From the IMG/VR virus record IMGVR_UViG_3300030380_004143, positions 1 to 24,729 of that record: 24,729 nucleotides of DNA; one strand, given 5' to 3'. The notes under the pieces were generated by a model that was not told where the DNA came from, ran no database searches, and saw nothing but the letters and a program-made list of their open reading frames with translations. The number at the start of each line of letters is the position of its first letter. Positions within the stretch are counted from its first letter, which is position 1. This document shows positions 5,740 to 24,151 of the stretch, piece after piece. Both the position numbers and the translations under genes were made by a program. Origin of the DNA: a virus.

Positions 5740-6786
5740 ATGTCTGAATATACAAAAACCGCACTGGTCCTCGGTGCGGGTGGTTTCATCGGAAGTCACA
5801 TGGTCAAAAGACTCCGCGAAGAAGGTTATTGGGTTCGTGGAGTGGACCTCAAACAACCAGAGTTTTCCTCTACCAGAGCAAATGAGTTTGTTCTTGGTGA
5901 CCTGAGGGACACTAGGTTTGTTCAACGGTGCGTTCGCTTCACCGGATATCTTGGTAATTTCTACAAAGATATTGCAGATAAGTTCGCAGAACCGTTTGAC
6001 GAGATCTATCAGTTCGCTGCTGATATGGGTGGTGCAGGTTTTGTTTTCACTGGTGAGAACGATGCTGACATCATGCACAACTCTGTGTCTATCAACTTGA
6101 ATGTTCTTGAGGAACAGCGTAAGTTGAACGAGAGGACAGGAGTTAATAGAACAAAGATTTTTTATTCTGGATCTGCTTGCATGTATCCAGAGCACAACCA
6201 ACTTGACCCGGATAATCCAGACTGTCGTGAAGAGTCTGCATATCCTGCTAACCCGGACTCTGAATATGGATGGGAAAAACTCTTCAGTGAACGTCTCTAC
6301 CTTGCTTACAACAGGAACCATGGCATTTCTGTTCGTGTTGCTCGCTACCATAACATCTTTGGACCCGAAGGGACCTGGGAGGGTGGAAGAGAGAAAGCTC
6401 CAGCTGCAATCTGCCGTAAAGTCGCTGAACTCCCGGCGCTTGGTGGAACCATCGAGGTGTGGGGAGACGGCTTACAGACTCGTTCCTTCTTGTTCATTGA
6501 TGAATGCATTGAAGCGACTCGAAGACTGATGGACTCCGACTTCCTTGGACCTGTAAATATTGGTTCAGAGGAGATGGTGACTATCAATCAACTAGTAGAT
6601 ACTGCCGCTAAGGTTGCTGGAAAGACAGTAGAGAAGAACCATATCGATGGTCCTCTTGGTGTTCGTGGTCGAAACTCTAACAACGATCTCATCCGTGAGA
6701 AACTTGGTTGGGACTACTCTCAAACACTTGAAGAGGGTATTAGAAAGACATACACTTGGATTGCTAAGCAGGTTGCTAACCGATGA
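5740..6786 (+). CDS. GDP-mannose 3,5-epimerase-like enzyme
   Basis: This 348-residue extended short-chain dehydrogenase most likely converts GDP-D-mannose to GDP-L-galactose (and GDP-L-gulose). The N-terminal NAD site is GAGGFIG (12-18). Sequence blocks match plant GDP-mannose 3,5-epimerase rather than generic epimerases: AADMGGAGF (93-101), SGSACMYPE (143-151), YGWEK (176-180), HNIFGPEGTWEGGREKAPAA (204-223), WGDGLQTRSFLFIDEC (241-256) and GPLGVRGRNSNNDLI (304-318). The expected catalytic residues are present: Cys147, the Tyr176/Lys180 pair, and Lys218 or 219 in GREKAPAA. A slightly longer stretch near residues 61-86 differs from the plant enzymes. It is the first gene of the cassette, 22 bases after the -10 box, with no clear ribosome binding site; it overlaps the next gene by four bases. 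Confidence in the family is high; substrate is inferred from motifs. Confidence 0.85.
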   Translation: MSEYTKTALVLGAGGFIGSHMVKRLREEGYWVRGVDLKQPEFSSTRANEFVLGDLRDTRFVQRCVRFTGYLGNFYKDIADKFAEPFDEIYQFAADMGGAGFVFTGENDADIMHNSVSINLNVLEEQRKLNERTGVNRTKIFYSGSACMYPEHNQLDPDNPDCREESAYPANPDSEYGWEKLFSERLYLAYNRNHGISVRVARYHNIFGPEGTWEGGREKAPAAICRKVAELPALGGTIEVWGDGLQTRSFLFIDECIEATRRLMDSDFLGPVNIGSEEMVTINQLVDTAAKVAGKTVEKNHIDGPLGVRGRNSNNDLIREKLGWDYSQTLEEGIRKTYTWIAKQVANR

Positions 6787-7637
6787 TTATTTCAGTATTA
6801 GGTTCTAGTGGTCAGATAGGTGCTTATCTGACTGAGTATCTTCGTGGCAAAGGTCATGAAGTCATTGAGATTGATAAAAACTTAGGTCCTGAGCATAATC
6901 TCACTACTATTCCCAATGAATATGTTGAGATTCAAATTAAACGCTCTGACTTTGTATTTGTCCTAGCATTTGATGTTGGTGGTTCTAGATATCTCAAGAA
7001 GTATCAACACACATTCGACTTTGTGAATAACAATACTCGAATGATGGCAAACGTATTCACGATGCTTGAGAAGCACAAGAAGCGTTTTGTCTTTGCATCA
7101 TCTCAGATGAGTAACATGAGTTACTCTCCTTATGGTGTGCTGAAGCGCGTGGGTGAACTTTACACTTCTACCCTGAAAGGACTGACTGTTAAGTTCTGGA
7201 ATGTCTATGGTATTGAAAAAGACATGGACAAAGCACACGTCATCACCGACTTCATCCGTAAAGGGTTTGAAGAGAAGCAATTTGATATGCTGACTGATGG
7301 CACTGAAGAGCGTCAGTTCCTCTACGCTGAAGACTGCTGTGAAGCGTTAGAGGCAGTGATGGAGAACTACACGGACTTCAAACCTGAAGATCCTCTTCAC
7401 ATCACCTCATTCCGCTCTGAAACGATTAGAGAGGTTGCAAACATCATTCAAGGGTGTTTCGCAATGGAGGGAATGTATGACGTTAAAATTAACTCTGGAC
7501 TCGCTAAAGATAGTGTTCAGATGGACAAAAGAAATGCTCCAGACACTTTTATTCTTGACTGGTGGATCCCTAAAACTAATATCCAAGATGGTATTAGACA
7601 AGTATTCAATGAAATGAAAAAGAACTATGGCTACTAA
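6783..7637 (+). CDS. NAD(P)-dependent sugar epimerase/dehydratase-type protein
   Basis: This is a 284-residue short-chain dehydrogenase-type enzyme acting on a nucleotide sugar. The dinucleotide-binding loop is GSSGQIG (7-13), the serine-containing strand is ASSQMS (105-110), and the catalytic pair is YGVLK (117-121). A FWNVYG stretch after it fits the usual substrate-side V-x-G region, followed by an EERQFLYAED segment (about residues 176-185) like the R-x-F-x-x-x-x-D region of epimerases. It is shorter than the 310-350 residues of typical UDP-sugar epimerases, so it may be a reductase or a 3,5-epimerase/4-reductase rather than a GalE enzyme. It follows the GDP-mannose 3,5-epimerase by ATGA overlap, which makes a GDP-hexose substrate plausible. 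Substrate unproven. Confidence 0.82.
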   Translation: MIISVLGSSGQIGAYLTEYLRGKGHEVIEIDKNLGPEHNLTTIPNEYVEIQIKRSDFVFVLAFDVGGSRYLKKYQHTFDFVNNNTRMMANVFTMLEKHKKRFVFASSQMSNMSYSPYGVLKRVGELYTSTLKGLTVKFWNVYGIEKDMDKAHVITDFIRKGFEEKQFDMLTDGTEERQFLYAEDCCEALEAVMENYTDFKPEDPLHITSFRSETIREVANIIQGCFAMEGMYDVKINSGLAKDSVQMDKRNAPDTFILDWWIPKTNIQDGIRQVFNEMKKNYGY

Positions 7638-8424
7638 TCTCACTGAAATCAGAAACTTTATCAACGAACCACATTGTGATCTTGGTGTGAACGCTTGGGT
7701 ACTTGCTGAGTTGGTAAAAACATTCAAAGACGCACGTTTCTTGGATCTTGGTGTCCGTCTTGGAGCATCATCCGCCATCTTGTCTATTGATGCTGATGAT
7801 AATAATAACCAAGTATGTGGTTGCGACCTCATGTTTGATGGTTTTCAACGTAATGGTGCTCGTTTTGTAAAACCAAACTACATGTGCTATCAGGCAGATA
7901 GTGTAACTCTTGGTAAGAACTGGGATGAAGATCCTTTTGATATCATCTTTGTTGATACTATTCATACCCGTGAGCAGGTTCTTGCTGAACTTTATTACTG
8001 GAGCGATCATATCAAAGAGAATGGATATTTTATCTTCCATGACTGCCATTGGGTAGGTGCTGGTGGTGAAGATAATGTCGTCTCTGAAGACACCTACGGT
8101 GATACCATCGGGGGTAAACTTTGGAAGCGTCCTGATGTTGCAGTCACTGACTTCTTCGGACTTCCTAAGAGCGTTAGAGAGTTGGAAGACTATGAGGATG
8201 AAAACATTAAGGTTGATCACTATCAACCTAGTTACGGTATGACTTTTGTTCAGGTCAAAAACCTTGAAGCTATTGAACAGTTCAAGAAAAATATTGACTG
8301 GTCTGAAGTTTTTGAGACTCGTAACTGGTTGAATGACCTGCACTTCAACCCTAAGAATCCTAACTTTGTTGACTGGAACCAGGATATTGCTAATATTGAG
8401 AACGAACTTGTTATTACCCCATGA
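7627..8424 (+). CDS. Class I SAM-dependent methyltransferase (cephalosporin-hydroxylase/Methyltransf_24 type)
   Basis: The 265-residue protein has a Rossmann methyltransferase core: FLDLGVRLGASSAIL (38-52) as the SAM-binding loop, an acidic strand end CDLMF (66-70), DIIFVDTIHTREQV (105-118), and ENGYFIFHDCHW (131-142). The D-T-x-H and H-D-C pairs resemble those of metal-assisted sugar O-methyltransferases and the cephalosporin hydroxylase-like group. It probably methylates a sugar hydroxyl on a nucleotide sugar or glycan. It overlaps the upstream dehydrogenase by 11 bases and the downstream glycosyltransferase by four. The sugar and the position methylated cannot be told. The C-terminal 70 residues are acidic and unassigned. 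Confidence 0.78.
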   Translation: MATNLTEIRNFINEPHCDLGVNAWVLAELVKTFKDARFLDLGVRLGASSAILSIDADDNNNQVCGCDLMFDGFQRNGARFVKPNYMCYQADSVTLGKNWDEDPFDIIFVDTIHTREQVLAELYYWSDHIKENGYFIFHDCHWVGAGGEDNVVSEDTYGDTIGGKLWKRPDVAVTDFFGLPKSVRELEDYEDENIKVDHYQPSYGMTFVQVKNLEAIEQFKKNIDWSEVFETRNWLNDLHFNPKNPNFVDWNQDIANIENELVITP

Positions 8425-9251
8425 CGTTTGAGGTTTCCCATTGGAGCGGCAGACTTGGCAACAACATTCAACAGGTTGCCAACTGCCTTATGGCTGCTGA
8501 ACAATATAAGTCAGTTTTTAGACAGAAACTTGACCATCATATTATTTCCAACTATGACATAGACTTCCAACAAATGTCTCATACCTCTCAGTGGGCAGGT
8601 AAAGGAAGATATTATGCTTGGGAGGGTATTGTTCATTGTGAAAGGGGTGAAGTCGAAGGAGGAAATGAGACTGGTGTAGATAGAGACTTTATCTATGCTA
8701 ATATGCGTCGTATTTGTAAGAAATATGTTGCACCTTTTCTAAAAATTCCACGTAAAGAAGCACTTGATGATGACACTATCGTCATGCATCTTCGCAGCGG
8801 TGACAACTATCACCGTGTATTTGACCCTCCGACTAACTATGTTCCAAACCCTCTCATCTTTTATCTTAACTTGATAGAGAGTTTTGACAGGTGTATTCTT
8901 ATTACAGAACCTGATGATAAGAACCCTATCGTTCATGAACTTCGTAAACTTGATAAGGTTCAGATACAGTCATCCTCAGTAGAAGAGGACTTTGCAACAT
9001 TGATGTCTGCTAAAAACCTTGCGTTGTCTGGAGTTGGAACATTTGCCATGGCAGCAGCATTGTGTTCTAGTAACATCAAGAATTTGTTCACGACAGATCT
9101 GTTGTTGACTGAGCACCTAAATTATACTATGCTGTTTAATACAGATGTAGAAGTTCATGTTATGGAACTAGGTGATGAATACATCCCTGTTTATCCTTGC
9201 AGTTGGGCTAACACTGAAGAGCAGAGACAATTTATTCTAGATTATAGATGA
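8421..9251 (+). CDS. Fucosyltransferase-like glycosyltransferase (GT11-related)
   Basis: This 276-residue protein looks like a GDP-sugar-dependent glycosyltransferase of the alpha-1,2/alpha-1,6-fucosyltransferase superfamily. It has GRLGNNIQQVAN (10-21) in place of the usual G-x-x-GNQ-x-F, and VMHLRSGDNY (121-130), the H-x-R-x-G-D donor-site motif. Further on come an EEDFATLMSAKNLALSGVG stretch and PCSW, as in this fold. It is more divergent than the other three family members in the cassette, so placement in GT11 rather than a neighbouring family is tentative. The position next to two nucleotide-sugar enzymes fits transfer of a product of this pathway. No signal peptide or membrane segment is seen, so it should act in the cytoplasm. 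Confidence 0.7.
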   Translation: MTFEVSHWSGRLGNNIQQVANCLMAAEQYKSVFRQKLDHHIISNYDIDFQQMSHTSQWAGKGRYYAWEGIVHCERGEVEGGNETGVDRDFIYANMRRICKKYVAPFLKIPRKEALDDDTIVMHLRSGDNYHRVFDPPTNYVPNPLIFYLNLIESFDRCILITEPDDKNPIVHELRKLDKVQIQSSSVEEDFATLMSAKNLALSGVGTFAMAAALCSSNIKNLFTTDLLLTEHLNYTMLFNTDVEVHVMELGDEYIPVYPCSWANTEEQRQFILDYR

Positions 9252-10237
9252 AAATCTTCGTAACCGGGTGTGCTGGTTTGCTTGGTTCAAACTATGCCCG
9301 TCATCTTCTTGCTTCGGGGCATGAAGTCATAGGTATTGATGATCTCTCTGGAGGGTACAAAGCATTTGTACCCAAAGGGGAGAAGTTTACGTTTGTAAAA
9401 CTAAACTTAGAGAGGAGGAAAAAAGTTGCTGAACTTTTTGAGGAGCATAATCCTGATGTCCTCCTTCATTTCGCGGCGTATGCGGCTGAGGGACTTTCTC
9501 CTTTTATTCGTAATTACAATTATCGTAATAATCTTATCGTTTCCGCTAATCTGATCAATGAATGCATCACCCACGGAACGAAAGTTATCTTCACTTCTTC
9601 CATGGCTGTCTATGGGGAACAGACGCCCCCATTTACAGAAGATAAACGCCCGCAACCTGTTGATCCATATGGTATTGCAAAATACGCAGTAGAGTGTGAC
9701 CTTAAACTTGCTCATGAGCAGTTTGGACTGCGATACAATATCGTCCGTCCTCACAACGTCTTAGGCATCTATCAGAACATCTGGGATAAGTATCGTAATG
9801 TTATTGGTATTTTCATCCGAAAGGCATTGAATGGTGTGCCTATCCTTGTATATGGTGACGGAGAACAGACTCGTGCTTTCTCTGACATCCAATATTACAT
9901 GGAACCGTTTGATAAACTCCTTACTGACTTTGATGGTGAGACGTTCAACATCGGTGCTGACAAATATTTTACTCTAAATGAAGTTGCAGAGACGGTTCAA
10001 ACTATTGCTGCTAAGTATGGTTATGAAGTTCCTATCGAGCACGGTGAACCACGTCATGAAGTCAAACATGCTTTCTGTGATCACACAAAAGCAAAGACAA
10101 TGTTGAACTTTGAGGATAAAACAAACCTTCAGGAGTTGGTTGAAAGTATGTTTGTTTGGGCGATGAAGCAACCAAATAGGAAGGTTAAGAAAATGGAATA
10201 TGAAGTGACTAAAGACATCTATGATTATTGGAAATGA
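9248..10237 (+). CDS. UDP-glucose 4-epimerase-type NAD-dependent sugar epimerase
   Basis: This is a 329-residue extended short-chain dehydrogenase. The NAD loop is GCAGLLG (7-13), followed by IDDLSGGY (30-37), typical of GalE-like enzymes. The active site strand is FTSSMAVYGE (115-124) and the catalytic pair Y141/K145 sits in PYGIAKYAVE. Further GalE-type signatures are VRPHNVLG, a DGEQTRAFSDI stretch and FNIGADKYFTLNEV. It lacks nothing I would expect for activity. It probably interconverts C4 epimers of a UDP-hexose or a related sugar, to feed the glycosyltransferases in the cassette. It overlaps its neighbours by four bases on both sides. The exact sugar, and whether the donor is UDP or GDP linked, is not readable from sequence. 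Confidence 0.85.
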   Translation: MKIFVTGCAGLLGSNYARHLLASGHEVIGIDDLSGGYKAFVPKGEKFTFVKLNLERRKKVAELFEEHNPDVLLHFAAYAAEGLSPFIRNYNYRNNLIVSANLINECITHGTKVIFTSSMAVYGEQTPPFTEDKRPQPVDPYGIAKYAVECDLKLAHEQFGLRYNIVRPHNVLGIYQNIWDKYRNVIGIFIRKALNGVPILVYGDGEQTRAFSDIQYYMEPFDKLLTDFDGETFNIGADKYFTLNEVAETVQTIAAKYGYEVPIEHGEPRHEVKHAFCDHTKAKTMLNFEDKTNLQELVESMFVWAMKQPNRKVKKMEYEVTKDIYDYWK

Positions 10238-10929
10238 CTGACTTAGAAGCGTTGGAGGGTCAGTATCCCACTGGTTCTGAAAGGTATTTTGTTGAAAAGC
10301 ATGATAGACTGAGACATAAGTTTCCAGGTTCAGAAGACATTATTGAGAACCACTCTCAGTCAATGCAGGACCTCTTTGTTCTTTCTGTGCTTGATGGAAA
10401 GAAGAATGGAGTCTATATTGAAGTAGGAGCAGATAGACCAAGAGTTATTAACAACACTTGGTTGCTTGAATCAATGTATGACTGGATGGGAGTATCGTTT
10501 GAAATTGATCCTGTGAAGGTTGAATATTTCAATACCATTCGGAGAAACAAGTGTATCTGCGAAGATGCAACTGCTTTTGACTACAAGTTTCTTTTTCAAG
10601 AGAGAAACTACCCTAAACAAATAGACTATTTGCAGTTGGACTGTGACCCTCCACAGGTCACTCTTGCCTGTCTTAAGCAACTTCCTTTAGAGGACTATCG
10701 TTTTTCTGTTATTACTTTTGAAACGGATCTCTACGCAGGTGGTCACTCTGTTCAAAAAGAGCAATGGGAGATCCTTATGTCACTTGGATATAAGAGAGTT
10801 GCCAAGAATGTATGTAATGAAGGTAACCCTTATGAAGACTGGTGGATTGACCCACTTGTCGTTCCTGAAGAGAGTTACAAACCCTTCATGATTGACGACG
10901 TAGAATTTAGTAAAATTATTTTAGACTGA
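10234..10929 (+). CDS. FkbM-family methyltransferase
   Basis: This 231-residue protein resembles the FkbM (Methyltransf_21) family, which methylates sugar or polyketide hydroxyls. It has SQSMQDLFVL (41-50) ahead of a glycine-rich SAM loop VYIEVGADRPRVINNTWLLE (60-79), an acidic end SFEIDP (88-93) for the ribose, and then IDYLQLDCDPP, equivalent to the family's D-x-E-G region but with D-C-D-P-P. The ATG at 10234 overlaps the previous stop in ATGA; two codons further upstream a TTG is in frame but less likely. It stands directly before a second FkbM-type gene, sharing one base (TGATG). The two differ enough in sequence to have separate targets. Confidence 0.78.
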   Translation: MTDLEALEGQYPTGSERYFVEKHDRLRHKFPGSEDIIENHSQSMQDLFVLSVLDGKKNGVYIEVGADRPRVINNTWLLESMYDWMGVSFEIDPVKVEYFNTIRRNKCICEDATAFDYKFLFQERNYPKQIDYLQLDCDPPQVTLACLKQLPLEDYRFSVITFETDLYAGGHSVQKEQWEILMSLGYKRVAKNVCNEGNPYEDWWIDPLVVPEESYKPFMIDDVEFSKIILD

Positions 10930-11531
10930 TGCTATTAGACTTTAACGCACTTAAAGCACAACACAACGTTAACATCAAGGGTGTCATCCACGTTGGCGGT
11001 CATATTGGTGATGAACTTGAAGAATATCAAGGTATTGAGAACATTATCATCTTTGAACCACAGAAGCATTGTTATGATCAACTTGTAGCAAAAGCAGAGC
11101 GTATTGGTTTGGGTGGTAAGTTTGTAAATTGTGCCCTTGGCAACTTCATCGGTGAAGCAGAAATTACTTCTGACCCAACTGGACTGACGGGTTCACTTTT
11201 GGAACCTGGACTTGTGGTTGATTATCCTGATATCGTGTTCAGTGAGAAGTTTATGGTTGATGTGTCTAAACTGGATGAAGAGATTCCAGCAGACCACCCA
11301 TACAACTTTCTGAATATGGATGTTCAGGGTTATGAGTTGGAGGTTTTAAAGGGTGGCACAAATACACTTGAGAAGATTGACTACGTAATGACTGAAGTCA
11401 ACCGTGCTGAAGTGTATAAAAAGTGTGCTATGATAGAGGAACTCTCCGAGTTCCTGGCACAGTATAACTTTACTAAAGTTGCTGAAGCATGGCACGGAGA
11501 CTGGGGTGATGCATTTTACATTAAAGGTTGA
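10929..11531 (+). CDS. FkbM-family methyltransferase (second copy)
   Basis: This is a compact 200-residue FkbM-family protein. The SAM loop is KGVIHVGGHIGDELEEY (17-33), the ribose-contact strand is IIIFEPQ (39-45), and the NMDVQGYELEVLKGG stretch is the family's D-x-x-G-x-E-x-x-V-L-x-G motif. A TEVNRAEVY stretch follows, as in many members from glycan clusters. It should O-methylate a sugar residue. Its start shares one base with the stop of the preceding FkbM gene, so the two are coupled. Similarity to that neighbour is limited to the family motifs, so this does not look like a recent duplication. No membrane segment is seen. Confidence 0.82.
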   Translation: MLLDFNALKAQHNVNIKGVIHVGGHIGDELEEYQGIENIIIFEPQKHCYDQLVAKAERIGLGGKFVNCALGNFIGEAEITSDPTGLTGSLLEPGLVVDYPDIVFSEKFMVDVSKLDEEIPADHPYNFLNMDVQGYELEVLKGGTNTLEKIDYVMTEVNRAEVYKKCAMIEELSEFLAQYNFTKVAEAWHGDWGDAFYIKG

Positions 11532-11533
11532 TA

Positions 11534-12391
11534 ATGAAAGTATTTGACTCGTTTATTTTTTTCAACGAACTTGAGTTGCTTGAGATGCGTCTTAACATCT
11601 TGGGTGACGTTGTTGACAAGTTTGTTCTCACAGAATCTCCCTATACTGTCAGTGGTAATGAAAAACCACTGTACTATGAGGAGAATAAGGACAAGTTTGC
11701 TAAGTGGCACGACAAGATTGTCCATAATATTACAGAGGAGATCCCTAATGACTTCTCTCATATGATGGAAAAGAGTAAGTTTCACATCGGTTACAGCGAA
11801 CTTGACCCTTACGGCACTCCGTTTATCAACCTTCCTATCCGTTTTCAAAGAGCAGTTTTCAATAGAAACAATAGTTGCTTTGGTATTGAAAAGGCAGGAG
11901 CAGAAGATGGTGACCTTGTGATGACAAGTGATGCTGATGAAATTATCAACCCACTTGTGCTTCAGGATCTGTCCTGGTTTGATCCTAACAACCACTACAC
12001 CACACTATGTAATGCTTATTATTACAAACTGAACTTCTTATATCAGGATGACTGGATGGGAACCAGACTCTGCACCTGGAAACATCTGAAAGGCACCACT
12101 ATCGACCAGCATCGACAAGATCATGCTAATGCTCACAAGATTGCGGACGGTGGTTGGCATTTTAGTTTCCTGGGCAATGCAGAAAATTTCAAGTTGAAAC
12201 TGGCATCATACGAACACACAGAGAATAACATTGCGTCTAACACTGACAACGCAGAAGAAAAGATAGAACAAGGACTGGATCCTATTGGTAGAGGAATGAC
12301 TTACCGAGCAGTCCCTATTGACGAAAGTTATCCAGAATATATTCAAAACAACCAGGAGAAGTACAAAGAATTTATTAAATCATGGAACTAA
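11534..12391 (+). CDS. GT17-family glycosyltransferase (N-acetylglucosaminyltransferase III-like)
   Basis: The 285-residue protein opens with MKVFDSFIFFNELELLEMRL, then VVDKFVLTESPYTVSGNEKP (26-45), which is the characteristic start of glycosyltransferase family 17. That family includes eukaryotic beta-1,4-mannosyl-glycoprotein N-acetylglucosaminyltransferase and many bacterial and phage relatives. A metal/nucleotide-binding motif appears as MTSDADEIINP (130-140). A long aromatic stretch with NAYYYKLNF, and then GGWHFSFLGN, matches the family C-terminal half. The donor is probably a UDP-sugar. The start at 11534 lies two bases after the previous stop, the only gap in the cassette. An in-frame TTG two codons earlier overlaps the previous stop and cannot be excluded. 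Confidence 0.82.
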   Translation: MKVFDSFIFFNELELLEMRLNILGDVVDKFVLTESPYTVSGNEKPLYYEENKDKFAKWHDKIVHNITEEIPNDFSHMMEKSKFHIGYSELDPYGTPFINLPIRFQRAVFNRNNSCFGIEKAGAEDGDLVMTSDADEIINPLVLQDLSWFDPNNHYTTLCNAYYYKLNFLYQDDWMGTRLCTWKHLKGTTIDQHRQDHANAHKIADGGWHFSFLGNAENFKLKLASYEHTENNIASNTDNAEEKIEQGLDPIGRGMTYRAVPIDESYPEYIQNNQEKYKEFIKSWN

Positions 12392-13314
12392 TTGAAGGAG
12401 TTGAACTGTCTAGACTTTGTGACTACTCGTTTGGTGACCAAGCGGGACAGTGGAGTAACATATATTCTCATTTTATGAAGGATGCAAGTTTTTTAAATGT
12501 AGAGTTTGCATCTAAAGTATTTGATATAAAGCAAAGTAGAGACTATATGACTCTGTTTATTGATAATATTCGCTTATATAAGAGAGATATTGCTGAAGTA
12601 AAAGATAGTGATAAACCCATTGTGGATGCCATGATGGAAACAAGTGACCTTCTAAAGTTGTGTGGTCAGTTTCCCGAGATGAAGTTTATCATTTTCACAA
12701 ACCTGGAGGATACACCACTTGACGAGTACATTTTCGATTGTATACCAGATAATGTTCTGCGTGTGTGTGCTGCTAATTCTGTTGTGTGGAATGAAAAAGT
12801 AATTCCCGCACCATATGGTGTTCAAAGACGAATGAGTTTGAATGATGATAGAATAGAAGTTCTTCAAAAATACATGAATAAGGAGGAGAAGAAAGTCCCT
12901 AGATCGTTTAGACTATTGTATGTTGGCATTAATGAAAATTCACACGAAGAAAGAAAGGGTCTCACTCAAAAGTTTGTTGAAGAACCTTGGGCAACTGTAG
13001 AGACTGGAAGAGTTGACTATGAAACTTTTCTTGATAGAATGTGGAGATGTAAGTTTGTCTTATGCCCTAGGGGAAATGCCATTGACTGTCATAGAAACTG
13101 GGAGGCAGTCTACATGCGTCGGGTTCCTGTGATGAAAAGAGACCCATATCTGCAAGAGTTATACAAAAATTACTCAGTTTTATGGGTGGATGACTATTCA
13201 GAAGTAACAGAACAACTTCTCCTTGATAACAACCAACTATTTCTTGACGCACAGGAAGCAGATCTTTCCTCACTTGACCTTAATAACTTCTTTGATAAAT
13301 GGAAAAGACCTTAG
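12382..13314 (+). CDS. Exostosin-like glycosyltransferase domain protein
   Basis: This 310-residue protein has no clear motif in its N-terminal 170 residues, but its C-terminal part carries FVLCPRGNAIDCHRNWEAV (225-243) followed by YMRRVPV. That is the pattern of the GT-B donor-binding half of exostosin/GT47-like transferases: F-x-L-C-P-x-G-x-x-x-D-x-x-R-x-W-E-A. The LLYVGINENSHEERKG stretch (178-193) fits the start of that half-domain. It would transfer a sugar from a nucleotide donor, but which sugar is not apparent. It overlaps the GT17 gene by 10 bases and the next gene by 16. The rest of the protein may be an acceptor-binding half that is too diverged to recognise. Confidence 0.68.
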   Translation: MELIEGVELSRLCDYSFGDQAGQWSNIYSHFMKDASFLNVEFASKVFDIKQSRDYMTLFIDNIRLYKRDIAEVKDSDKPIVDAMMETSDLLKLCGQFPEMKFIIFTNLEDTPLDEYIFDCIPDNVLRVCAANSVVWNEKVIPAPYGVQRRMSLNDDRIEVLQKYMNKEEKKVPRSFRLLYVGINENSHEERKGLTQKFVEEPWATVETGRVDYETFLDRMWRCKFVLCPRGNAIDCHRNWEAVYMRRVPVMKRDPYLQELYKNYSVLWVDDYSEVTEQLLLDNNQLFLDAQEADLSSLDLNNFFDKWKRP

Positions 13315-14000
13315 TAGTATCAAACCACAACTCTTGTCTTGAGTGGTTGACCACCACATATGACTATGGGTTTTCTCCACAAAACACTATCATTTATGAT
13401 AGGAGTGATAAAGAGAAAGACTGGAGTCACTTGGGTGAAAGCATCCGTTCACCTAATGTTGGTGAGAATATCTATGATATTATGCGATATATTGTAGAAC
13501 ACTATGAAACTCTCCCCGATGTTTGTGTATTCATCAAGGGAAACATGTTCCAACGTCCTGAAGAAAGGGGTGGTGCAGAGTATTATACAACCCGTGAGAG
13601 GTTTTATCGTGCTTTAAATGCCGAATATTTCTTGCCTATTGAACGTTTTCATGAGTCAACTGCTTTTGTGGTCAATGGCGGTGGTTTCATTCAACCTACC
13701 TGGGAAGCAGTAAGTAACCAGACTGTTTACACCAGACACTTCTCCACTTTTCCACAAATGTTGGACAAGTTGTTTTACAACGCACCTAACTTTCCTTATA
13801 ATAGGTTCGCACCTGGTGGGAACTATGTTGTCCCTAGGGCAAACATTCACAAGTATAGTAAACAGTTTTATGAGAAACTTCAGTTCTATGTTTCTTATGA
13901 ACCACCGGAAGAATTTCAAAGCACATCAGGCGAATCTTACTTGATTGAGAGACTTCTTTATATGATGTGGACGGAAGACCTGGAGGAGAGAAATGTATAG
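13299..14000 (+). CDS. DUF3431-like protein, possible glycosyltransferase
   Basis: This 233-residue protein resembles the DUF3431 family, seen in fungi and in some bacterial and viral glycan clusters. Visible features are LVVSNHNSCLEWL (5-17), IIYDRSDKEKDW (31-42), NVGENIYDIMRYIVEHYETL (53-72), then PDVCVFIKGN, and later RFAPGGNYVVPRANIHKYSK. The layout, a strand ending in YD(R/K) followed by N-x-G-x-x-x-Y-D-x-x-x-Y-I, is typical of the family, whose reaction is not known to me. The context argues for a role in sugar transfer. It overlaps the gene before by 16 bases and the next by eight. Family assignment is from memory of its motifs, so moderate confidence. Confidence 0.62.
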   Translation: MEKTLVVSNHNSCLEWLTTTYDYGFSPQNTIIYDRSDKEKDWSHLGESIRSPNVGENIYDIMRYIVEHYETLPDVCVFIKGNMFQRPEERGGAEYYTTRERFYRALNAEYFLPIERFHESTAFVVNGGGFIQPTWEAVSNQTVYTRHFSTFPQMLDKLFYNAPNFPYNRFAPGGNYVVPRANIHKYSKQFYEKLQFYVSYEPPEEFQSTSGESYLIERLLYMMWTEDLEERNV

Positions 14001-14787
14001 CGTTTACGGTGCTGGATACATTGGTGGTAGATATTGTGAGATGTATCCAGATGACACGATAATTATCCCTAGAGAGCAAAGAGTTCCTGAAACCCAGGAA
14101 CTTTTGTATTTTATATCTACGATTGACAACAGTAATATTCGCACCGATATTACCCTAGATGTTGAGACAAATCTCCATATTCTGTGTGAGGTCTTGGATT
14201 ATTGTCGGAGTGCTGACCGCGTTTTCAATTTTATTTCTTCTTGGTTCGTCTACGGAGATTGTGATCTCCCTGCCAAAGAGGATGCGACATGTAATCCAAG
14301 AGGGTTTTACTCCATCACAAAGAAGTGTGCAGAAGATCTTATCATTGACTTCTGTAAAACCTATGGAATGAAGTATAGAATACTTCGTATGCCTAATGTT
14401 GTTGGTGGTTTTGACCCTAAGGCATCACCGAAGAAGAATGCTATATCCTACTTGATCAGTCTTCTCAAGAAGGGTGAAGATATTACTTTAGTAAATGATG
14501 GTCAGGTTTATCGAGATGTGATGCACGTTGATGACGTTTGTAGAGGCATTAATACAGTAGTAAATAGGGGAGAACTCAATACCATCTACAACATCGGAAG
14601 TGGACAAACGTTTTCTCTGGGTGGTATAATGAGTACGGCAAAGCATTTTCTAAAGTCAGAGTCAAAAATTCTCTCAAAACCTGGATATAGTCAGGATATG
14701 TTGCTGGATTGTAGTAAGGTGAGAGCATTAGGTTTTAGTCCCAAGATTAGTATTACTGAAATTATCAGAGAGTTATGTACCAACTGA
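13993..14787 (+). CDS. NAD(P)-dependent sugar reductase/epimerase (abequose/paratose synthase-like)
   Basis: This 264-residue protein is a small short-chain dehydrogenase-type enzyme. The nucleotide loop is GAGYIGG (6-12), the active-site strand is FNFISSWFVYGD (78-89), the catalytic pair is FYSITKK (Y106, K110), and LRMPNVVGGFDP and VMHVDDVCRGI follow as in epimerase-family enzymes. It is short (264 residues against 300-340), like CDP-abequose/paratose synthases and related 4-keto-sugar reductases. It directly precedes, and overlaps by 13 bases, the 3-dehydrase at 14775. In O-antigen clusters a 3-dehydrase and a 4-ketoreductase work together to make 3,6-dideoxyhexoses, so the pair probably acts in sequence. 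The substrate remains an inference. Confidence 0.78.
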   Translation: MYSVYGAGYIGGRYCEMYPDDTIIIPREQRVPETQELLYFISTIDNSNIRTDITLDVETNLHILCEVLDYCRSADRVFNFISSWFVYGDCDLPAKEDATCNPRGFYSITKKCAEDLIIDFCKTYGMKYRILRMPNVVGGFDPKASPKKNAISYLISLLKKGEDITLVNDGQVYRDVMHVDDVCRGINTVVNRGELNTIYNIGSGQTFSLGGIMSTAKHFLKSESKILSKPGYSQDMLLDCSKVRALGFSPKISITEIIRELCTN

Positions 14788-16070
14788 TTGATACATTTAT
14801 TGAGTCCGCAAAGGAGATGGATGATGACATCTTTCCCTTTATGGCAAACAGGGGTTGGGAAGAAGGTAAACCTGTTTATTATTCTGGTCCTTATTGGGAT
14901 GACAATGAGGCAAGAGAACTTATATACTCTGTGATGAAAGGTAAGTGGTTGTCTTCTGGTGAGAAGGTAAACCGTTTTGAGCATGAGTTTTCAAGAAAGT
15001 TTGGATTCTCTCATTCTGTAATGGTGAACTCTGGGTCATCTGCCAACCTGGTGATGATCGCTGCGTTAAAGAAATATTTCAACTGGGCAGACGGTGATGA
15101 AATTATTGTATGCGCTTGTGGTTTTGCGACGACTGTAGCACCAATCGTACAGGCAGGTCTGAAACCTGTGTTTGTTGACATCAACTGGGGCGACCTTAAC
15201 TGGGACTTGGAGCAGGTCGAGGCAAAGATTACTGAAAAGACAAGAGCAGTATTTTCCTCTCCTGTTTTGGGTAATGCCTATGATATGGATCAACTTTATG
15301 ACATTCTTGACAGGCATCAACTGGAACTTATCGCTGACAACTGTGATAGTTTGGGCAGTAAGTATGAAGGTCACTACCTTACAGACCGTGCTGTAGCAGC
15401 ATCTTGCTCCTTCTATCCTGCTCACCACCTCTGTACTATCGAGGGTGGCATGGTTTCATCTAATAACAAAGCAATCATTGACCTTGCACGTAGTTTTGCT
15501 TGGTGGGGACGTGGTTGTTATTGTGTAGGACAACAAAACTTGCTGTCTAACGGTGTATGTGGACGACGCTTTGATAGGTGGTTGGAAAAGTATCCTGACA
15601 TCGTTGACCATAAGTATGTCTTCGGGAATATGGGATATAATCTTAAACCTCTTGACCTTCAGGGTGCAGTTGGTTCAGTTCAACTGTTGAAGTTTGAGGA
15701 AATTCATGATAAACGTCGCAAAAATAAGTGGGCAATTCATCAGATTGTTGAGCGTATTCCTGGTATCCGTGTGATGAGAGAGATGCCAAATGCAGAGACA
15801 AGTTGGTTTGGTGTTCCTATTCTCTGTGATAATAAGAAGTTAAAGCATTCTCTTGTCAAACACTTTGAAGATAATAAAGTGCAGACAAGAAACTATTTTG
15901 CTGGTAATATTCTTCTTCATCCTGGATATTCTTACCTTGATGATGCTAATAAATATCCCAACGCGAACCAAGTATTAGACCTAGTATTCTTCCTTGGGTG
16001 TTCGCCAACAATCACTGACAAGATGATTGAGTACATTGCAAAAGTGGCATCACAATATGTTAGCGACTGA
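14775..16070 (+). CDS. PLP-dependent sugar 3-dehydrase, ColD/RfbH type
   Basis: The 431-residue protein belongs to the DegT/DnrJ/EryC1/StrS fold (PLP-dependent). It shows VNSGSSANLVMIAAL (84-98), the IADNCDSLGS loop (186-195) and a GYNLKPLDLQGAVG segment. The usual Schiff-base lysine is absent: the site reads CSFYPAHHLCTIEGG (211-225), with histidines 217/218. That is the mark of GDP-4-keto-6-deoxymannose 3-dehydrase (ColD) and CDP-4-keto-6-deoxyglucose 3-dehydrase (RfbH), which remove the 3-hydroxyl. SWFG and TRNYFAGN also fit. RfbH has an iron-sulfur cluster with C-x-C-x7-C; here GRGCYC (C248, C250) and C262 give C-x-C-x11-C. Simple aminotransfer is therefore unlikely. The start overlaps the reductase gene; an internal ATG at 14817 is an alternative. 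Confidence 0.83.
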   Translation: MYQLIDTFIESAKEMDDDIFPFMANRGWEEGKPVYYSGPYWDDNEARELIYSVMKGKWLSSGEKVNRFEHEFSRKFGFSHSVMVNSGSSANLVMIAALKKYFNWADGDEIIVCACGFATTVAPIVQAGLKPVFVDINWGDLNWDLEQVEAKITEKTRAVFSSPVLGNAYDMDQLYDILDRHQLELIADNCDSLGSKYEGHYLTDRAVAASCSFYPAHHLCTIEGGMVSSNNKAIIDLARSFAWWGRGCYCVGQQNLLSNGVCGRRFDRWLEKYPDIVDHKYVFGNMGYNLKPLDLQGAVGSVQLLKFEEIHDKRRKNKWAIHQIVERIPGIRVMREMPNAETSWFGVPILCDNKKLKHSLVKHFEDNKVQTRNYFAGNILLHPGYSYLDDANKYPNANQVLDLVFFLGCSPTITDKMIEYIAKVASQYVSD

Positions 16071-16947
16071 ATTTCTTCATGGACAAGGCATGGGCAATCA
16101 ACTGTTTGCCTATGTCACGACCAGAGTTCTTGCGCTTAGACTTGGATATGACTTTGGTATCAAAGGACTTCAAAGCGCAGGGGACTCAAGAGTAAACAAG
16201 AAAGGGTTCTACTTTATGAACCTGGACTATGGTAAGGAAGTACCAGATGATCTCACCAGATATGATGAATATCGTCACGCTCTAGAGACAGATACGTGGC
16301 TTAGGACTGATATTAGACTGACTGATAAGGGTCTTCTGTCTATACCTGACAATCATATTATTTACGGTAACTTTCAGTCAGAGGACTATTTCTATCCTGA
16401 AATAGATGTGGTCAAAGATTGGTTGAGAGTTCGTATTATGTACGAACATGATGACACAAACGGAAAGAACATCTGTGTTCTTAATTTCCGTGGCGGAGAT
16501 ATGATTGGTAATGCTGGAGCATTTGTTCCACCATCATATTGGCATAATGCTATGCAGCATATGTCAGAATACAACCCTAACATGGAATATTGCATTGTAA
16601 CTGATGATGTTAAAACTGCTAATAGGATGCTCCCTGACATCCCTGCATATCATGTTGACGTGGCATGGGATTATGTCGCTGTCAAGAATGCAAGGAATGT
16701 TATATGTACTACCTCCACCTTCTCTTGTTTCCCTTTATGGACATCCAAAAATTTAGAGATGTGCATTGCACCCAAGTATTGGTTCCATCACAACCTATCA
16801 CAAGGATGGTGGAGTCTTGGATGCAGTATTTACAGTTATCCGACATATTACATGGATAGGGACGGTAAACTGTTTACACCCGATGAATGTAGGGTAGAAT
16901 GGGACCAATATAAGGAGAGTTCTAACATTTACAATGGGGACCTATGA
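16057..16947 (+). CDS. GT11-like glycosyltransferase, divergent
   Basis: This 296-residue protein is related to alpha-1,2-fucosyltransferases (GT11). GQGMGNQLFAYVTTRVLALR (9-28) corresponds to the G-x-G-N-Q-x-F-x-Y start of the family. YGNFQSEDYF (103-112) matches the G-Y-F-Q-S-x-x-Y-F block, and VLNFRGGDMIG (141-151) takes the place of H-V-R-R-G-D, so the donor-site histidine is Asn and the second Arg is Gly. A C-terminal TSTFSCFPLW segment matches S-T-F-S-W-W. The donor may differ from GDP-L-fucose. It starts inside the end of the 3-dehydrase gene (14-base overlap), where the sequence AATATGTTAGCG also occurs at a second GT11 gene start. A longer in-frame reading from 16027 lies in the 3-dehydrase and is less likely. 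Confidence 0.75.
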   Translation: MLATEFLHGQGMGNQLFAYVTTRVLALRLGYDFGIKGLQSAGDSRVNKKGFYFMNLDYGKEVPDDLTRYDEYRHALETDTWLRTDIRLTDKGLLSIPDNHIIYGNFQSEDYFYPEIDVVKDWLRVRIMYEHDDTNGKNICVLNFRGGDMIGNAGAFVPPSYWHNAMQHMSEYNPNMEYCIVTDDVKTANRMLPDIPAYHVDVAWDYVAVKNARNVICTTSTFSCFPLWTSKNLEMCIAPKYWFHHNLSQGWWSLGCSIYSYPTYYMDRDGKLFTPDECRVEWDQYKESSNIYNGDL

Positions 16948-17654
16948 TGACCAAGATTGACCTAAAAGATGTTACATTAATATCTGTTGACACAACCGAT
17001 GACTTAACTGGAACTCTTAATGGTGTTTTTACTAGTATGTCTGGTATCAACTATGGTGCTGTCAAACTTGTGACTACTCAAGAGCAAATTGATAAGAACC
17101 CACATTTTTCTGATGAGGGCATCACCGCTGAAGTGTCTGTAGCACCCATCAAAAACTACAATGACTATAACCACTACGTCATCTATCATCTTCACAACCA
17201 CGTTGATACCTCTCATTGTCTCTTAGTACAACCAGATGGGTTTGTATTGTTCCCTGACAAGTGGGATGACTCTTGGATGCAATATGACTATATCGGTGCT
17301 CCATGGGCGCATGTAGAAGACGCATATATTGACCCTTTTGGCAACCATCACAGAGTTGGCAATGGTGGTTTCTCTTTCCGAAGCAAGAAGTTTCTTGAGG
17401 TTCCCACAAAAGTCGAAGTCCCATGGGAAACAAACAATAGTGACTTCTACTGGATGCCCGAAGGTGTGGTAAACTATCATGAGGATGGTAACGTTTGCGT
17501 TCACAACCGTCACATCTTTGTAGAACAGGGGTGTAAGTATGCTCCCGTCGATGTCGCCGTCAGGTTCTCACAAGAAACCAGAGTTCCTGAAGCAGAGGGG
17601 GTGACACCATTTGGTTTCCATTATAGACTGCCACCAGGAGTTGAACTTTCATGA
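16944..17654 (+). CDS. DUF5672-type putative glycosyltransferase
   Basis: This 236-residue protein carries the pattern of the DUF5672 family, found next to sugar-transfer genes: HCLLVQPDGFVLFPDKWDD (91-109), then MQYDYIGAPW (112-121), RVGNGGFSFRSKKFLE (137-152), and a HEDGNVCVHNRHIFVEQG stretch followed by APVDVAVRFS and PFGFH. The QPDG and GGFSFR segments could hold the donor- and acceptor-binding sites of a GT-A-like fold, and the H-E-D near residue 180 could be catalytic; that is inference. The start at 16944 lies in ATGATGA with the previous stop, so ATG at 16947 is also possible. It overlaps the following GT11 gene by four bases. No membrane anchor is seen. Confidence 0.8.
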   Translation: MMTKIDLKDVTLISVDTTDDLTGTLNGVFTSMSGINYGAVKLVTTQEQIDKNPHFSDEGITAEVSVAPIKNYNDYNHYVIYHLHNHVDTSHCLLVQPDGFVLFPDKWDDSWMQYDYIGAPWAHVEDAYIDPFGNHHRVGNGGFSFRSKKFLEVPTKVEVPWETNNSDFYWMPEGVVNYHEDGNVCVHNRHIFVEQGCKYAPVDVAVRFSQETRVPEAEGVTPFGFHYRLPPGVELS

Positions 17655-18451
17655 TCGGACACAATCACATTGGTAAGAACGGACGGTTTGGTAACCAGAT
17701 GTTCCAGTATGCTGCCACTCGTGGCATCGCACACTCGCATGGTGTTGACTTCATCATTCCTGATGGTCCTAGAACTGATGAGGAGTTCACGGATGAGGAG
17801 GAGCAGCATAAGCTTTTTATGGCATTTGATATGGAGGCTGCCAAAAATATTGGTTTTCTAGATGCACCCTATCGTCAGGAGGCATCGTTTCGTTTTGATG
17901 CAGACCTTTTTGAGAACTGTGATGACAACGTAAACCTTTACGGATATTTTCAGTCAGAGAATTGGTTCGCTCATATTGAAGACGAAATTCGACAGGACTT
18001 TACTTTCCGAGATGAAGTAACCGAAAAATGTCATAATGTTCTAGATCAAGTTGTGGGTGATGGAGACTTTATCACACTACATGTAAGACGAACCGACCAC
18101 CTTATCAAACCTACATATCACCCAGTCCTGCCAATCAGTTATTATGAAGAAGCACTTGGACGACTGCCGAAGGACCTCCCTGTGGTTGTACTCACGGATG
18201 ATCCATCGTGGGCATTCGGACACTCATTCTTTGAATCTGATCGTTTCTTTGTCTCTGAGAGTGACAACATTCACGATATGTGCCTCATGTCAATGTCCCA
18301 GTATAACATCATCGCAAACTCAACCTTCTCTTGGTGGGGAGCATGGCTCGCAGGACATGATAATGTGATTGCACCCAAACTCTGGTTTGGTCCTGATGGT
18401 GAGGACCCTACCGACATTTATATTGACCGCTGGGAGTATCTTGATGTCTGA
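17651..18451 (+). CDS. GT11 alpha-1,2-fucosyltransferase family protein
   Basis: This 266-residue protein is a clear GT11 member. It starts with NGRFGNQMFQYAATRGIA (10-27), carries LYGYFQSENWF (96-106) and LHVRRTDH (143-150), and later SQYNIIANSTFSWWGAWLAG. The last is the acceptor-side block of the family. In the donor motif H-V-R-R-G-D the glycine is Thr148, unusual for the family. GT11 enzymes usually transfer L-fucose from GDP-L-fucose to a galactose O2. The protein acts in the cytoplasm as no signal peptide or membrane segment is seen. It shares its domain with the genes at 16057 and 19991 but is not a recent copy of either. It overlaps the DUF5672 gene by four bases and the next gene by eight. 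Confidence 0.87.
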   Translation: MIGHNHIGKNGRFGNQMFQYAATRGIAHSHGVDFIIPDGPRTDEEFTDEEEQHKLFMAFDMEAAKNIGFLDAPYRQEASFRFDADLFENCDDNVNLYGYFQSENWFAHIEDEIRQDFTFRDEVTEKCHNVLDQVVGDGDFITLHVRRTDHLIKPTYHPVLPISYYEEALGRLPKDLPVVVLTDDPSWAFGHSFFESDRFFVSESDNIHDMCLMSMSQYNIIANSTFSWWGAWLAGHDNVIAPKLWFGPDGEDPTDIYIDRWEYLDV

Positions 18452-19202
18452 AATTACAGTATGCATCCCCACCTACGAATATAAGGGTAGGGGAGTTGAG
18501 TTTTTAGCAGAGTTGTTTGACTCTCTTGAGCGTCAAACTTTTACTGACTTTGATATTGTCATCTCTGACCATAGCAAAGATGATACGATTCAAGAATGGT
18601 GTCGTCACTGTCACTATGACTTTGAGATCACATACATCAGAAACCCAAATGGACGTGGTTTTCAGGCACCTAATACAGACTGTGCTATTGAAAATGCGGA
18701 GGGTAGAATCATCAAACTCATCTATCAAGATGACCTCTTTGTAGATGAAAATGCACTTCAAAAAATACATGATGCGTTTGAAAGTGGTGCTAAGTGGTTG
18801 ATTCATGGTTTCACTCACACCACAGATGGTATTGAAACACATCGTGACTGTGCTCCTAAGTGGACACCAAGGATGGTGGAAGGTGACAACTTGCTTGGAA
18901 GTCCCTCATGCACTGCTTTTCTTAATGGTGTTTATGATGGTATGGATGATAAGATGAAACTTCTCATCGATACCGAACTCTATCATCGTATGAGGCTCAA
19001 ACATGGTATGCCTGCTCTCATTGATGACGTTCTCATTGCGAACAGGGAACACGGCGATAGAATGAGTTCGGTTGGTGTTGATTATGACGCTACTATCTCA
19101 GACTCTTCTAGAACTTGGTTGGTAAATAAGGCAGAGATAGAGCATATCTATAACAAACATCCAGAATTTTTTGTGACAAGAAAGTATCCTGATGAAACAT
19201 GA
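18444..19202 (+). CDS. GT2-family glycosyltransferase
   Basis: This 252-residue protein begins MSEITVCIPTYEYKGRGVEF, the start of a GT-A fold family 2 transferase, followed by SLERQTFTDFDIVISDHSKD (27-46), which takes the place of the S-L-x-x-Q-x-x-x-x-E-x-I-V-V-D-D-x-S pattern. LIYQDDLFV (92-100) is the D-x-D-type metal site (as Q-D-D). After it comes a FESGAKWLIHGF strand and a PSCTAFLNG segment. GT2 enzymes invert the anomeric centre. The start at 18444 overlaps the preceding gene by eight bases. An in-frame start at 18369 would lie within the GT11 gene and adds no family sequence, so it is rejected. Donor and acceptor are unknown. Confidence 0.83.
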   Translation: MSEITVCIPTYEYKGRGVEFLAELFDSLERQTFTDFDIVISDHSKDDTIQEWCRHCHYDFEITYIRNPNGRGFQAPNTDCAIENAEGRIIKLIYQDDLFVDENALQKIHDAFESGAKWLIHGFTHTTDGIETHRDCAPKWTPRMVEGDNLLGSPSCTAFLNGVYDGMDDKMKLLIDTELYHRMRLKHGMPALIDDVLIANREHGDRMSSVGVDYDATISDSSRTWLVNKAEIEHIYNKHPEFFVTRKYPDET

Positions 19203-20004
19203 TTTAAAACAAGCGACTTTTATCATTCCTATTCGTATTGAATCGGAGGATAGACTTAGAAATGTCATCACTTCAGTGGCATTTCTTCTGAACAACTTTG
19301 ACACCAACATTATCATTAAAGAAGTAGATAAGACTTCTGTGTTTGCTGAGCAGGCACTGCCTCAATTAGAAAGTTTCTTTGGTGTAGCAAAAGTCAAACA
19401 CATCTTTGAAGAGAGTGATGAACCTTTGTTCCATCGTCAGAAAGTTCTGAACGAAATGATCATGGAAGCAGACACAGAGATTGTGGTCAACTATGACTGT
19501 GATGTTATTTTGCCTCTCAATTCTTATACGATTGCCTACCAGGGCATCATGAATGGAACATACGACGTTGTTTACCCTTACGGTGCTGGAATGTTTCAGA
19601 GGCAAGTGAACGCTGAGGATAAACTTGTCTCAGAGTTTCTTGATGGTAATAATTATGATGGTTTAGACAGGGCATCTAATGAGCATACCTCCGACTTTGG
19701 ATGGGCACAGTTCTTCCGTCGCAGTGTATACATTCAAGGTGGTATGGAGAATGAAAACTTCCGTGCGTATGCTCCTGAAGATAAGGAAAGATACTTCCGC
19801 TTTACCACACTTGGATATAAAGTTGGCAGAGTGAATGATGTTGTCTACCATCTGGAACATGCTAGAGGTGATAACTCTTGGTTCTCAAATCCACACATGC
19901 AGTCTAATATGAGTGAATGGGAGAAGATATGTAGGATGGACAAAATGGCTCTTATGGAGTATTATTCAAATCAAGACTATCTGAAAAAATATGTTAGCGT
20001 TTAA
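19192..20004 (+). CDS. GT-A glycosyltransferase (GT2 / galactosyltransferase-C-like)
   Basis: This 270-residue protein starts with QATFIIPIRIESEDRLRNVI (7-26), the R-x-x-R-x-x-N-x pattern at the start of many capsule and chondroitin-type GT-A transferases. VVNYDCDVILP (98-108) is the D-x-D motif. FFRRSVYIQGGMENENFRAY followed by APEDKERYFRF is the C-terminal motif where GGM-N-E and ED-E-R position the acceptor, like the Glyco_transf_7C end of galactosyltransferases. The whole length is accounted for by one transferase domain. It overlaps the GT2 gene before it by 11 bases, and its end (YVSV, then stop) lies in the second copy of AATATGTTAGCG. Sugar specificity is not determined by these motifs. 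Confidence 0.82.
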   Translation: MKHDLKQATFIIPIRIESEDRLRNVITSVAFLLNNFDTNIIIKEVDKTSVFAEQALPQLESFFGVAKVKHIFEESDEPLFHRQKVLNEMIMEADTEIVVNYDCDVILPLNSYTIAYQGIMNGTYDVVYPYGAGMFQRQVNAEDKLVSEFLDGNNYDGLDRASNEHTSDFGWAQFFRRSVYIQGGMENENFRAYAPEDKERYFRFTTLGYKVGRVNDVVYHLEHARGDNSWFSNPHMQSNMSEWEKICRMDKMALMEYYSNQDYLKKYVSV

Positions 20005-23770: not shown

Positions 23771-24151
23771 ATGTTCAAAACGACTATCGCTGCAGCAGCC
23801 GCCGCTGTTGCTTTCGCTCCTGCTGCTGCCCTAGCCGGACCCTACGTAAACGTAGAGGCCAACGCATCTTATCCTGATGGCGAGTATTCTTCAGCAACCA
23901 CAGATATTCATCTGGGTTACGCTGGTGGAGAAGGTAAAGTTGGTTACTACGTACAGGGAGGACCTGCCGTGGTTCACACTGAGTCCACTGATGACACCGA
24001 CACTGAACTGTCTGGTAAGGTTGGTATTTCTTACGCCGCAACCGAGGCTGTTGGAGTCTACGGAGAACTCGCTGGAATCTCTGGTGAAGACGCCACTGGT
24101 GATAACATCATCAACTGGGGTGCTAAACTGGGCGCAACCTGGAACTTCTGA
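23771..24151 (+). CDS. Secreted small beta-barrel / outer-membrane-type protein
   Basis: This 126-residue protein has a classical signal peptide: a positive start MFKTT, a 17-residue hydrophobic Ala/Val-rich core, and a cleavage site after ALA (about residue 22). The mature part alternates polar and aromatic/hydrophobic residues in strands such as YVNVEANASY, TDIHLGYAG, VGYYVQGGPAVVHT, KVGISYAAT and VGVYGELAG, and ends in GATWNF. A C-terminal Phe is typical for outer-membrane beta-barrel proteins recognised by the Bam complex. The length could build about eight short strands, as in OmpW/OmpA-like barrels. I recall similar genes in T4-like cyanophages, often called porin-like. It has its own promoter and leader, a clear SD (GAGG, eight bases away) and a downstream terminator, so it is a one-gene unit. 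Function unknown. Confidence 0.8.
   Translation: MFKTTIAAAAAAVAFAPAAALAGPYVNVEANASYPDGEYSSATTDIHLGYAGGEGKVGYYVQGGPAVVHTESTDDTDTELSGKVGISYAATEAVGVYGELAGISGEDATGDNIINWGAKLGATWNF

Follow-up and report, generated by a model that had tools for sequence, protein, structure and literature searches.

A probable GDP-mannose 3,5-epimerase gene and its association with fucosyltransferase-family genes in a marine cyanophage contig

Introduction

GDP-mannose 3,5-epimerase (GME, also GM35E) has been described from plants, from bacteria and from a cyanophage, and a gene that very probably encodes this enzyme lies at positions 5740-6786 (+ strand) of a 24,729-nucleotide stretch, the window, of IMG/VR virus record IMGVR_UViG_3300030380_004143, a virus contig of 28,510 bases. 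PMC9602691 (2022) names a GDP-mannose-3,5-epimerase in cyanophage S-SCSM1 and cites bacterial GMEs in antibiotic and lipopolysaccharide (LPS) synthesis, and PMC10665884 includes the S-SCSM1 GME in its list of auxiliary genes. Cyanophage GME is an already known class of genes, named in print; no viral GME was found in the available portions of PMC8940887 or PMC4935801 (plant).

The S-SCSM1 protein, ORF123, is of the same family as the window copy (64.7% identity by tblastn), carries all eight residues discussed below and is encoded in a glycan cluster with GT11. It differs in having the GDP-L-fucose gene GMD and GDP-L-fucose synthase (GFS) next to GME, neither of which was found in the window's 28.5-kb record, a fragment, and in lacking an 18-residue insertion of the window copy (residues 66-83, relative to the plant enzyme). 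MfGM35E of Methylacidiphilum fumariolicum, for which PMC6678494 proposes a role in LPS, has the same catalytic residues as described there; the window copy is viral, and the likeness is one of description, the MfGM35E sequence lying outside the comparison. Arabidopsis GME (PDB 2c59) is the nearest solved sequence and shares fold and active site, but it is 43-45% identical to the window copy in structural alignments and its ascorbate and cell-wall role is not carried over. GFS/GMER shares the short-chain dehydrogenase/reductase (SDR) fold, the catalytic Cys and GDP-sugar chemistry, but has His and Lys where the window GME has Lys219 and Arg311.

Residues and fold point to a GME

The open reading frame (ORF) begins with ATG and encodes an SDR protein of 348 residues. 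General libraries name no GME for it: Pfam gave Epimerase and GDP_Man_Dehyd, PHROGs gave a nucleotide-sugar epimerase, and no NCBIfam model reached its cut-off. In a phmmer search of the PDB the first five sequences were all GMEs (E = 5.6e-87 to 1e-83), headed by Arabidopsis 2c59, and the nearest non-GME chain had E = 7.7e-20.

The GME review PMC8787198 names residues that identify GME and separate it from GFS, and all eight are found in the window protein: Ser145, Cys147, Tyr176, Lys180, Asn205, Lys219, Arg248 and Arg311. The catalytic acid (Arabidopsis C145) corresponds to Cys147, the catalytic base (K217) to Lys219 and the arginine that acidifies the cysteine (R306) to Arg311. The SDR triad of Ser and YxxxK, together with Asn203 and the diphosphate Arg243, maps to Ser145, Tyr176, Lys180, Asn205 and Arg248, and the glycine motif (GxxGxxG or GxxGxxA) reads GAGGFIG at residues 12-18. 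One phage GFS placed in the same alignment as a control has Cys/His/Lys at the three diagnostic places, with His at the base and Lys at the arginine, and the GME set is lacking from the window's three other SDRs. All eight residues are conserved on the phage side in 83 of 83 copies (the window copy, RB11-B, S-SCSM1 and 80 IMG/VR loci) and among cellular loci in 80 of 80, of which one has an archaeal title; 12 of 12 additional phage isolates have them as well. Two other SDR genes of the window (L002 and L003) did not match at the chosen cut-off and are outside this count. The preliminary description of the window had named the ORF a GME from three motifs and a catalytic Cys, Tyr and Lys set. 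Each motif occurs in the translation, the set maps to Cys147, Tyr176, Lys180 and Lys219, and the alignment with Arabidopsis GME that it proposed has the active-site Cys and both lysines in place.

The AlphaFold2 model of the protein has a mean pLDDT of 81.2 and a pTM of 0.84, with residues 95-110 below 50. Foldseek returned GME chains in rows 1-14 (E = 3.4e-35 to 1.4e-30) and the next entry at 4.4e-23. VIA gave six GME entries with Z of 35.1-35.7 and rmsd of 2.3-2.8 over 309-316 residues, followed by an entry at Z = 32.9. This gap (35 versus 33) is modest, so the residues weigh more than the fold. The protein groups with GMEs by sequence and by fold (phmmer, tree, Foldseek and VIA), and dN/dS of the gene is 0.05-0.09 in 8 of 8 pairs with relatives (dS 0.98-2.01). 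Selection is purifying, and chance is excluded. The first PDB match, the eight residues and the fold agree on the family proposed earlier; sequence, residues and fold give this assignment good support, and identification of the enzyme as GME is made with high confidence from its sequence.

Two other names were considered. UDP-glucose 4-epimerase is the name on 10 of the 37 listed phage records at least 60% identical to the window GME (see below); one of the others is called GDP-mannose-3',5'-epimerase (S-SCSM1, MK867354.2), and the rest are generic or unannotated. The NCBIfam models for GFS and galE give weak matches of 90 and 63.6 bits, far under their curated cut-offs of 500 and 262.3. The active site is Cys/Lys/Arg and not the Cys/His/Lys of GFS, and it has the Cys/Lys pair, whereas GalE is without the extra acid and base according to PMC8787198. 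On cut-offs and residues both identities were rejected as highly improbable. A defense function was also set aside, PADLOC giving zero matches for the three proteins scanned (GME, the second SDR and ORF 8421).

Phage GMEs form a group among cellular enzymes

Matches to the window GME were found by tblastn in 139 of 50,697 phage records, 38 of which have a best place at least 60% identical. Among the 60 records listed are 37 of these 38, all from cyanophages or marine single-cell viruses; the S-B43 match covers 61% of the query. At least 600 IMG/VR stretches match, and the best 80 are 80-89% identical. With the cyanophage GME named in PMC9602691, these numbers overturn the earlier impression of few viral cases.

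At least 576 cellular relatives were confirmed in the genome collection, the best 80 being 61-69% identical and from many phyla. By alignment like that used for Arabidopsis, cellular relatives are 66-72% identical to the window GME, compared with 49% for Arabidopsis GME over a 311-residue fragment. No cyanobacterium appears in the titles of the best 80 of these cellular relatives, some of which read only 'bacterium', and absence is not implied.

A quick tree of 80 rows held the window, 14 isolates, 18 of the 80 IMG/VR loci, 45 of the 80 cellular loci, Arabidopsis and one GFS. All 33 phage rows fell with two bacterial rows into one group (SH-aLRT 99), which sits among cellular GMEs and separate from the plant enzyme, the forks that nest it having support of just 85-87. 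This phylogeny, a check suggested earlier, keeps the protein in the GME family. Neither its root nor the donor lineage is certain, since the cellular rows were taken from the best matches and the branches to Arabidopsis and GFS are long. The two bacterial rows (L086 and L087) were checked as possible phage contigs. Ten neighbors were scanned, of which two had no Pfam match and eight had matches that look cellular, including Sua5, SIMPL, an ABC transporter and polysaccharide genes.

By its sequence the window GME is bacterial-type and not plant-type. The match to plant GME claimed in the preliminary description holds for family, fold and active site, but not for the type of protein, and a plant or ascorbate origin was rejected, since prokaryotic cellular relatives are far closer. 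Because the protein is bacterial-type, nothing ties it to the ascorbate pathway. Plant GME does feed ascorbate synthesis, and a phage enzyme could in principle serve a similar antioxidant route. The recognized neighbors of GME are instead glycosyltransferases, sugar epimerases and methyltransferases, and no plant ascorbate-pathway enzyme is among the families recognized in the window, where no search was aimed at these. Such a route is extremely improbable.

GME genes occur with GT11 and GT10 genes

GT11 and GT10 are two families of fucosyltransferases, with GDP-L-fucose as their donor. GDP-L-galactose is the 6-hydroxy analogue of GDP-L-fucose and differs from it by one hydroxyl. According to PMC8787198, GDP-L-Gal is accepted by several L-fucosyltransferases in vitro and in the Arabidopsis mur1 mutant. 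The best explanation overall, which we consider probable, is that phage GME feeds GDP-L-galactose to GT11/GT10 enzymes for a glycan of the host surface or the virion. The window enzyme, a bacterial-type GME of a T4-like cyanophage, would convert host GDP-D-mannose to GDP-L-galactose and some GDP-L-gulose by the known mechanism: oxidation at C4 by bound NAD+, epimerization at C5 and C3 by Cys147/Lys219, and reduction at C4. The GDP-L-galactose would then be taken by phage GT11 enzymes, in relatives also by GT10 enzymes, and L-galactose would be built into a glycan on the surface of the infected cell or on the virion. Comparison establishes the family, residues, fold, selection, gene order and co-occurrence with GT11; the activity of GME, donor use by GT11, the acceptor and the benefit are what we infer.

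The 14 GME-bearing isolates were compared with 14 cyanomyoviruses (L178-L191) outside the GME list, hand-picked before GT11 was searched in them. Absence of GME was verified in these controls; only P-SSM2 matches, with SDRs 27-31% identical. GT11 is over the cut-off in 14 of 14 GME isolates, or 15 of 15 with the window's own record, versus 1 of 14 GME-negative phages (Fisher p = 7.5e-7 for 14/14 versus 1/14, kinship not corrected for), and GT10 is found in 6 of 14 versus 0 of 14 (p = 0.016). P-SSM2, the sole control with GT11, has a GMD over the cut-off (538.8 bits) and a GFS of 462 bits that is 60% identical to the GFS of S-SCSM1. GMD is over the cut-off in 1 of 15 GME-bearing records (S-SCSM1) and 1 of 14 controls (P-SSM2). 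None of the 29 records reaches the GFS cut-off of 500 bits; S-SCSM1 scores 455 and all records other than it and P-SSM2 score 109 or less.

Relatives of GT11 were found in 102 phage records, and the following counts refer to the 60 listed. Thirty-five hold GME, 23 others hold GMD and 2 hold neither, so that 58 of 60 have one or the other. Two S-SCSM1 records among the 35 hold GMD as well. A listed GFS match accompanies GMD in 19 of the 23, and of the remaining four, the S-CAM7 records, two have an adjacent annotated GDP-L-fucose synthetase. By phage name the split is 25, 7 and 2, since some phages are represented by several records and 11 of the records are ACG-2014f. The two listed GME records that do not appear among the listed GT11 rows come from single cells and are fragments of 74 and 13.6 kb. 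GMD and GFS both occur in S-SKS1 and AG-345-F15, neither of which has a listed GT11 row, so a listed GT11 is not a constant companion of GDP-L-fucose genes. The gene directly after GME is GT11/GT10 in 5 of 7 isolates scanned (S-CAM9, Bellamy, SynMITS9220M01, S-SM2 and Sf-CH5). With this association, the proposal of the preliminary description that host GDP-mannose supplies an L-sugar donor for phage glycosylation is plausible and gains support, and the link from GDP-L-galactose as donor to GT11 seems reasonably likely in its own right.

Several observations weigh against this explanation. In B23, whose record is a complete genome of 243.6 kb, GT11 occurs with neither GME nor GMD, and the same holds for AG-345-E08, a 22.8-kb fragment. 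S-SCSM1 holds GME, GMD and GFS together, and genes resembling gmd are present in Bellamy (165 bits) and SynMITS9220M01 (164 bits), with scores far short of the cut-off of 415. The gene that directly follows GME is a glycosyltransferase of another type in P-TIM68 and not a recognized one in S-SCSM1. Local tblastn with ten queries found GT10/GT11 as the first gene past GME in only 5 of 74 IMG/VR loci, and in 36 of 62 a GT10/GT11 was found no more than 6 kb downstream; a constant position directly after GME was therefore not upheld. The controls were hand-picked and related phages are not independent. Finally, the second SDR (6783-7637) could alter the GME product further.

This last point leads to a different reading, in which the useful product is GDP-L-gulose or that of the second SDR and GT11 uses host GDP-L-fucose. 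GME makes several products according to PMC8787198. The second SDR gene overlaps the end of GME by 4 nt, genes related to it are found next to or close to GME or GFS in several phages (next to GFS in P-SSM2, P-SSM5 and AG-345-E02), and B23 has GT11 without GME or GMD. GT11 nevertheless tracks phage donor genes in the 58 listed records noted above, and we judge this reading unlikely.

A glycan made with GDP-L-galactose could have either of two destinations. In RB11-B and B23 tail-fiber genes precede the glycan genes by about 10-14 kb, a weak sign of decoration of the virion (tail fibers or capsid), and the outer-membrane-like barrel (PF24653) just downstream of the window's glycan genes, itself a weak hint, favors remodeling of the host surface; neither is decisive. 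The host surface is a tentative choice of target, and decoration of the virion is rather unlikely.

Candidate RNAs upstream of GME

The wcaG candidate riboswitch (RF01761), which its first description (PMC2864571) ties to exopolysaccharide and high-light genes, was found upstream of GME at the Rfam threshold in 5 of 12 isolate loci, and it stands upstream of GME in S-SCSM1 by that record's annotation. Our own model, built from six GME phages, gave hits in 55 of 80 IMG/VR GME loci (L004-L083), and all 61 hits are upstream of GME. In 36 of the 80 loci the RNA lies within 200 nt of the GME start, there mostly 67-82 nt before it. Anywhere in the genome, wcaG is present in 7 of 14 GME-bearing isolates and in 5 of 15 GME-negative phages (the 14 controls and B23), and as a marker of GME it was rejected: the position fits, but presence in the genome is not GME-specific. 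A search of the window found no wcaG. GME may be a main gene under the wcaG candidate riboswitch in cyanophages.

In Prochlorococcus phage P-TIM68 a manA RNA (Rfam, 176.9 bits) was found at 2113-2308 of its locus (L168), between an annotated NAD synthetase gene, which precedes it, and a transaldolase gene; GME follows about 2.7 kb downstream.

The window GME heads a run of glycan genes

From GME on, 21 ORFs on the + strand (5740..23638; 17.9 kb) each overlap the next by 1-44 nt, with starts taken mechanically except at 18444, an in-frame ATG. The run is probably one polycistronic glycan operon headed by GME. Twelve of the 21 are recognizable as six nucleotide-sugar enzyme genes (four SDRs, a DegT/RfbH-like and a UGDH-like) and six glycosyltransferase genes (GT17, GT2, two GT11, GT25 and one phrog_2644), and the run also has two methyltransferases and one NAD synthase-like gene (Table 1). 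No named family was found for ORFs 8421, 10228, 12382 and 19192, and only DUFs for 13299 and 16944. None of the four window SDRs scanned reached a 4,6-dehydratase cut-off. In the FYPAHH motif of the DegT/RfbH-like enzyme a His presumably stands at the place of the pyridoxal phosphate Lys of aminotransferases, which would suggest a 3-dehydratase and not an aminotransferase.

Table 1. Features at and downstream of the second SDR gene in the window
Feature	Coordinates	Strand	Remarks
Second SDR, weakly GFS-like	6783..7637	+	alignment: Met at catalytic Cys place, His at GME Lys place
Methyltransferase	7627..8424	+	PF13578
GalE/RmlB-like SDR	9248..10237	+	below NCBIfam cut-offs
FkbM methyltransferase	10929..11531	+	PF05050
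GT17 glycosyltransferase	11528..12391	+	PF04724
RmlB-like SDR	13993..14787	+	matches begin at residue 49 or later; below NCBIfam cut-offs
DegT/RfbH-like enzyme with FYPAHH	14775..16070	+	
Glycosyltransferase	16027..16947	+	phrog_2644
GT11 (fucosyltransferase family) glycosyltransferase	17651..18451	+	PF01531
GT2 glycosyltransferase	18444..19202	+	PF00535
GT11 (fucosyltransferase family) glycosyltransferase	19991..20848	+	PF01531
NAD synthase-like protein	20833..21681	+	PF02540
UDP-glucose/GDP-mannose dehydrogenase-like	21678..22814	+	N-terminal and central domains matched
GT25 glycosyltransferase	22814..23638	+	PF01755
Cyanophage outer-membrane-protein-like beta barrel, just past the run	23771..24151	+	PF24653

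GME starts 27 nt past the end of the preceding small ORF. Upstream are nrdA and nrdB homologues and five tRNAs, and a high-light-inducible protein is encoded with the barrel downstream of the run. Among named DNA relatives, coverage is best for T4-like Synechococcus phages, for example RB11-B, RN05-S and S-H68. Genes annotated as NAD synthase and UGDH also lie near GME in S-SCSM2R, an annotated NAD synthetase in S-SSM7 and P-TIM68, and both families in cellular locus L086.

Two genes upstream were also observed. ORF 2863-3306 matches phrog_447, named NAD synthetase, and Pfam gives a segE-type GIY-YIG endonuclease; the phrog_447 name seems to be a spreading misannotation. A small Phd-like antitoxin gene (4649-4846; Pfam just below cut-off) overlaps the tRNA-Ile gene.

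Discussion

What is new here is the naming of this copy, the test of diagnostic residues across relatives, and the pattern of GT11 against GME and GMD, which we infer from the records compared. No paper linking cyanophage GME with GT11 was recognized in the open-access literature, judged on titles and the starts of abstracts. GME and GMD with GFS look like alternative supplies of L-sugar donors for phage GT11. We tentatively suggest two interchangeable donor modules for fucosyltransferase-family enzymes, GMD and GFS making GDP-L-fucose or GME alone making GDP-L-galactose, with L-galactose replacing L-fucose in GME phages. GME would then be paired in nature with GT11/GT10 enzymes, a combination of a kind described until now from a plant mutant and from in vitro syntheses.

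GME belongs to a large cyanophage gene set that is mostly named generically or as UDP-glucose 4-epimerase. Naming it GME predicts that marine cyanobacteria under infection, or their phages, have L-galactose in their glycans, and suggests a simple rule, testable with purified enzymes, for which sugar phage GT11 enzymes transfer.
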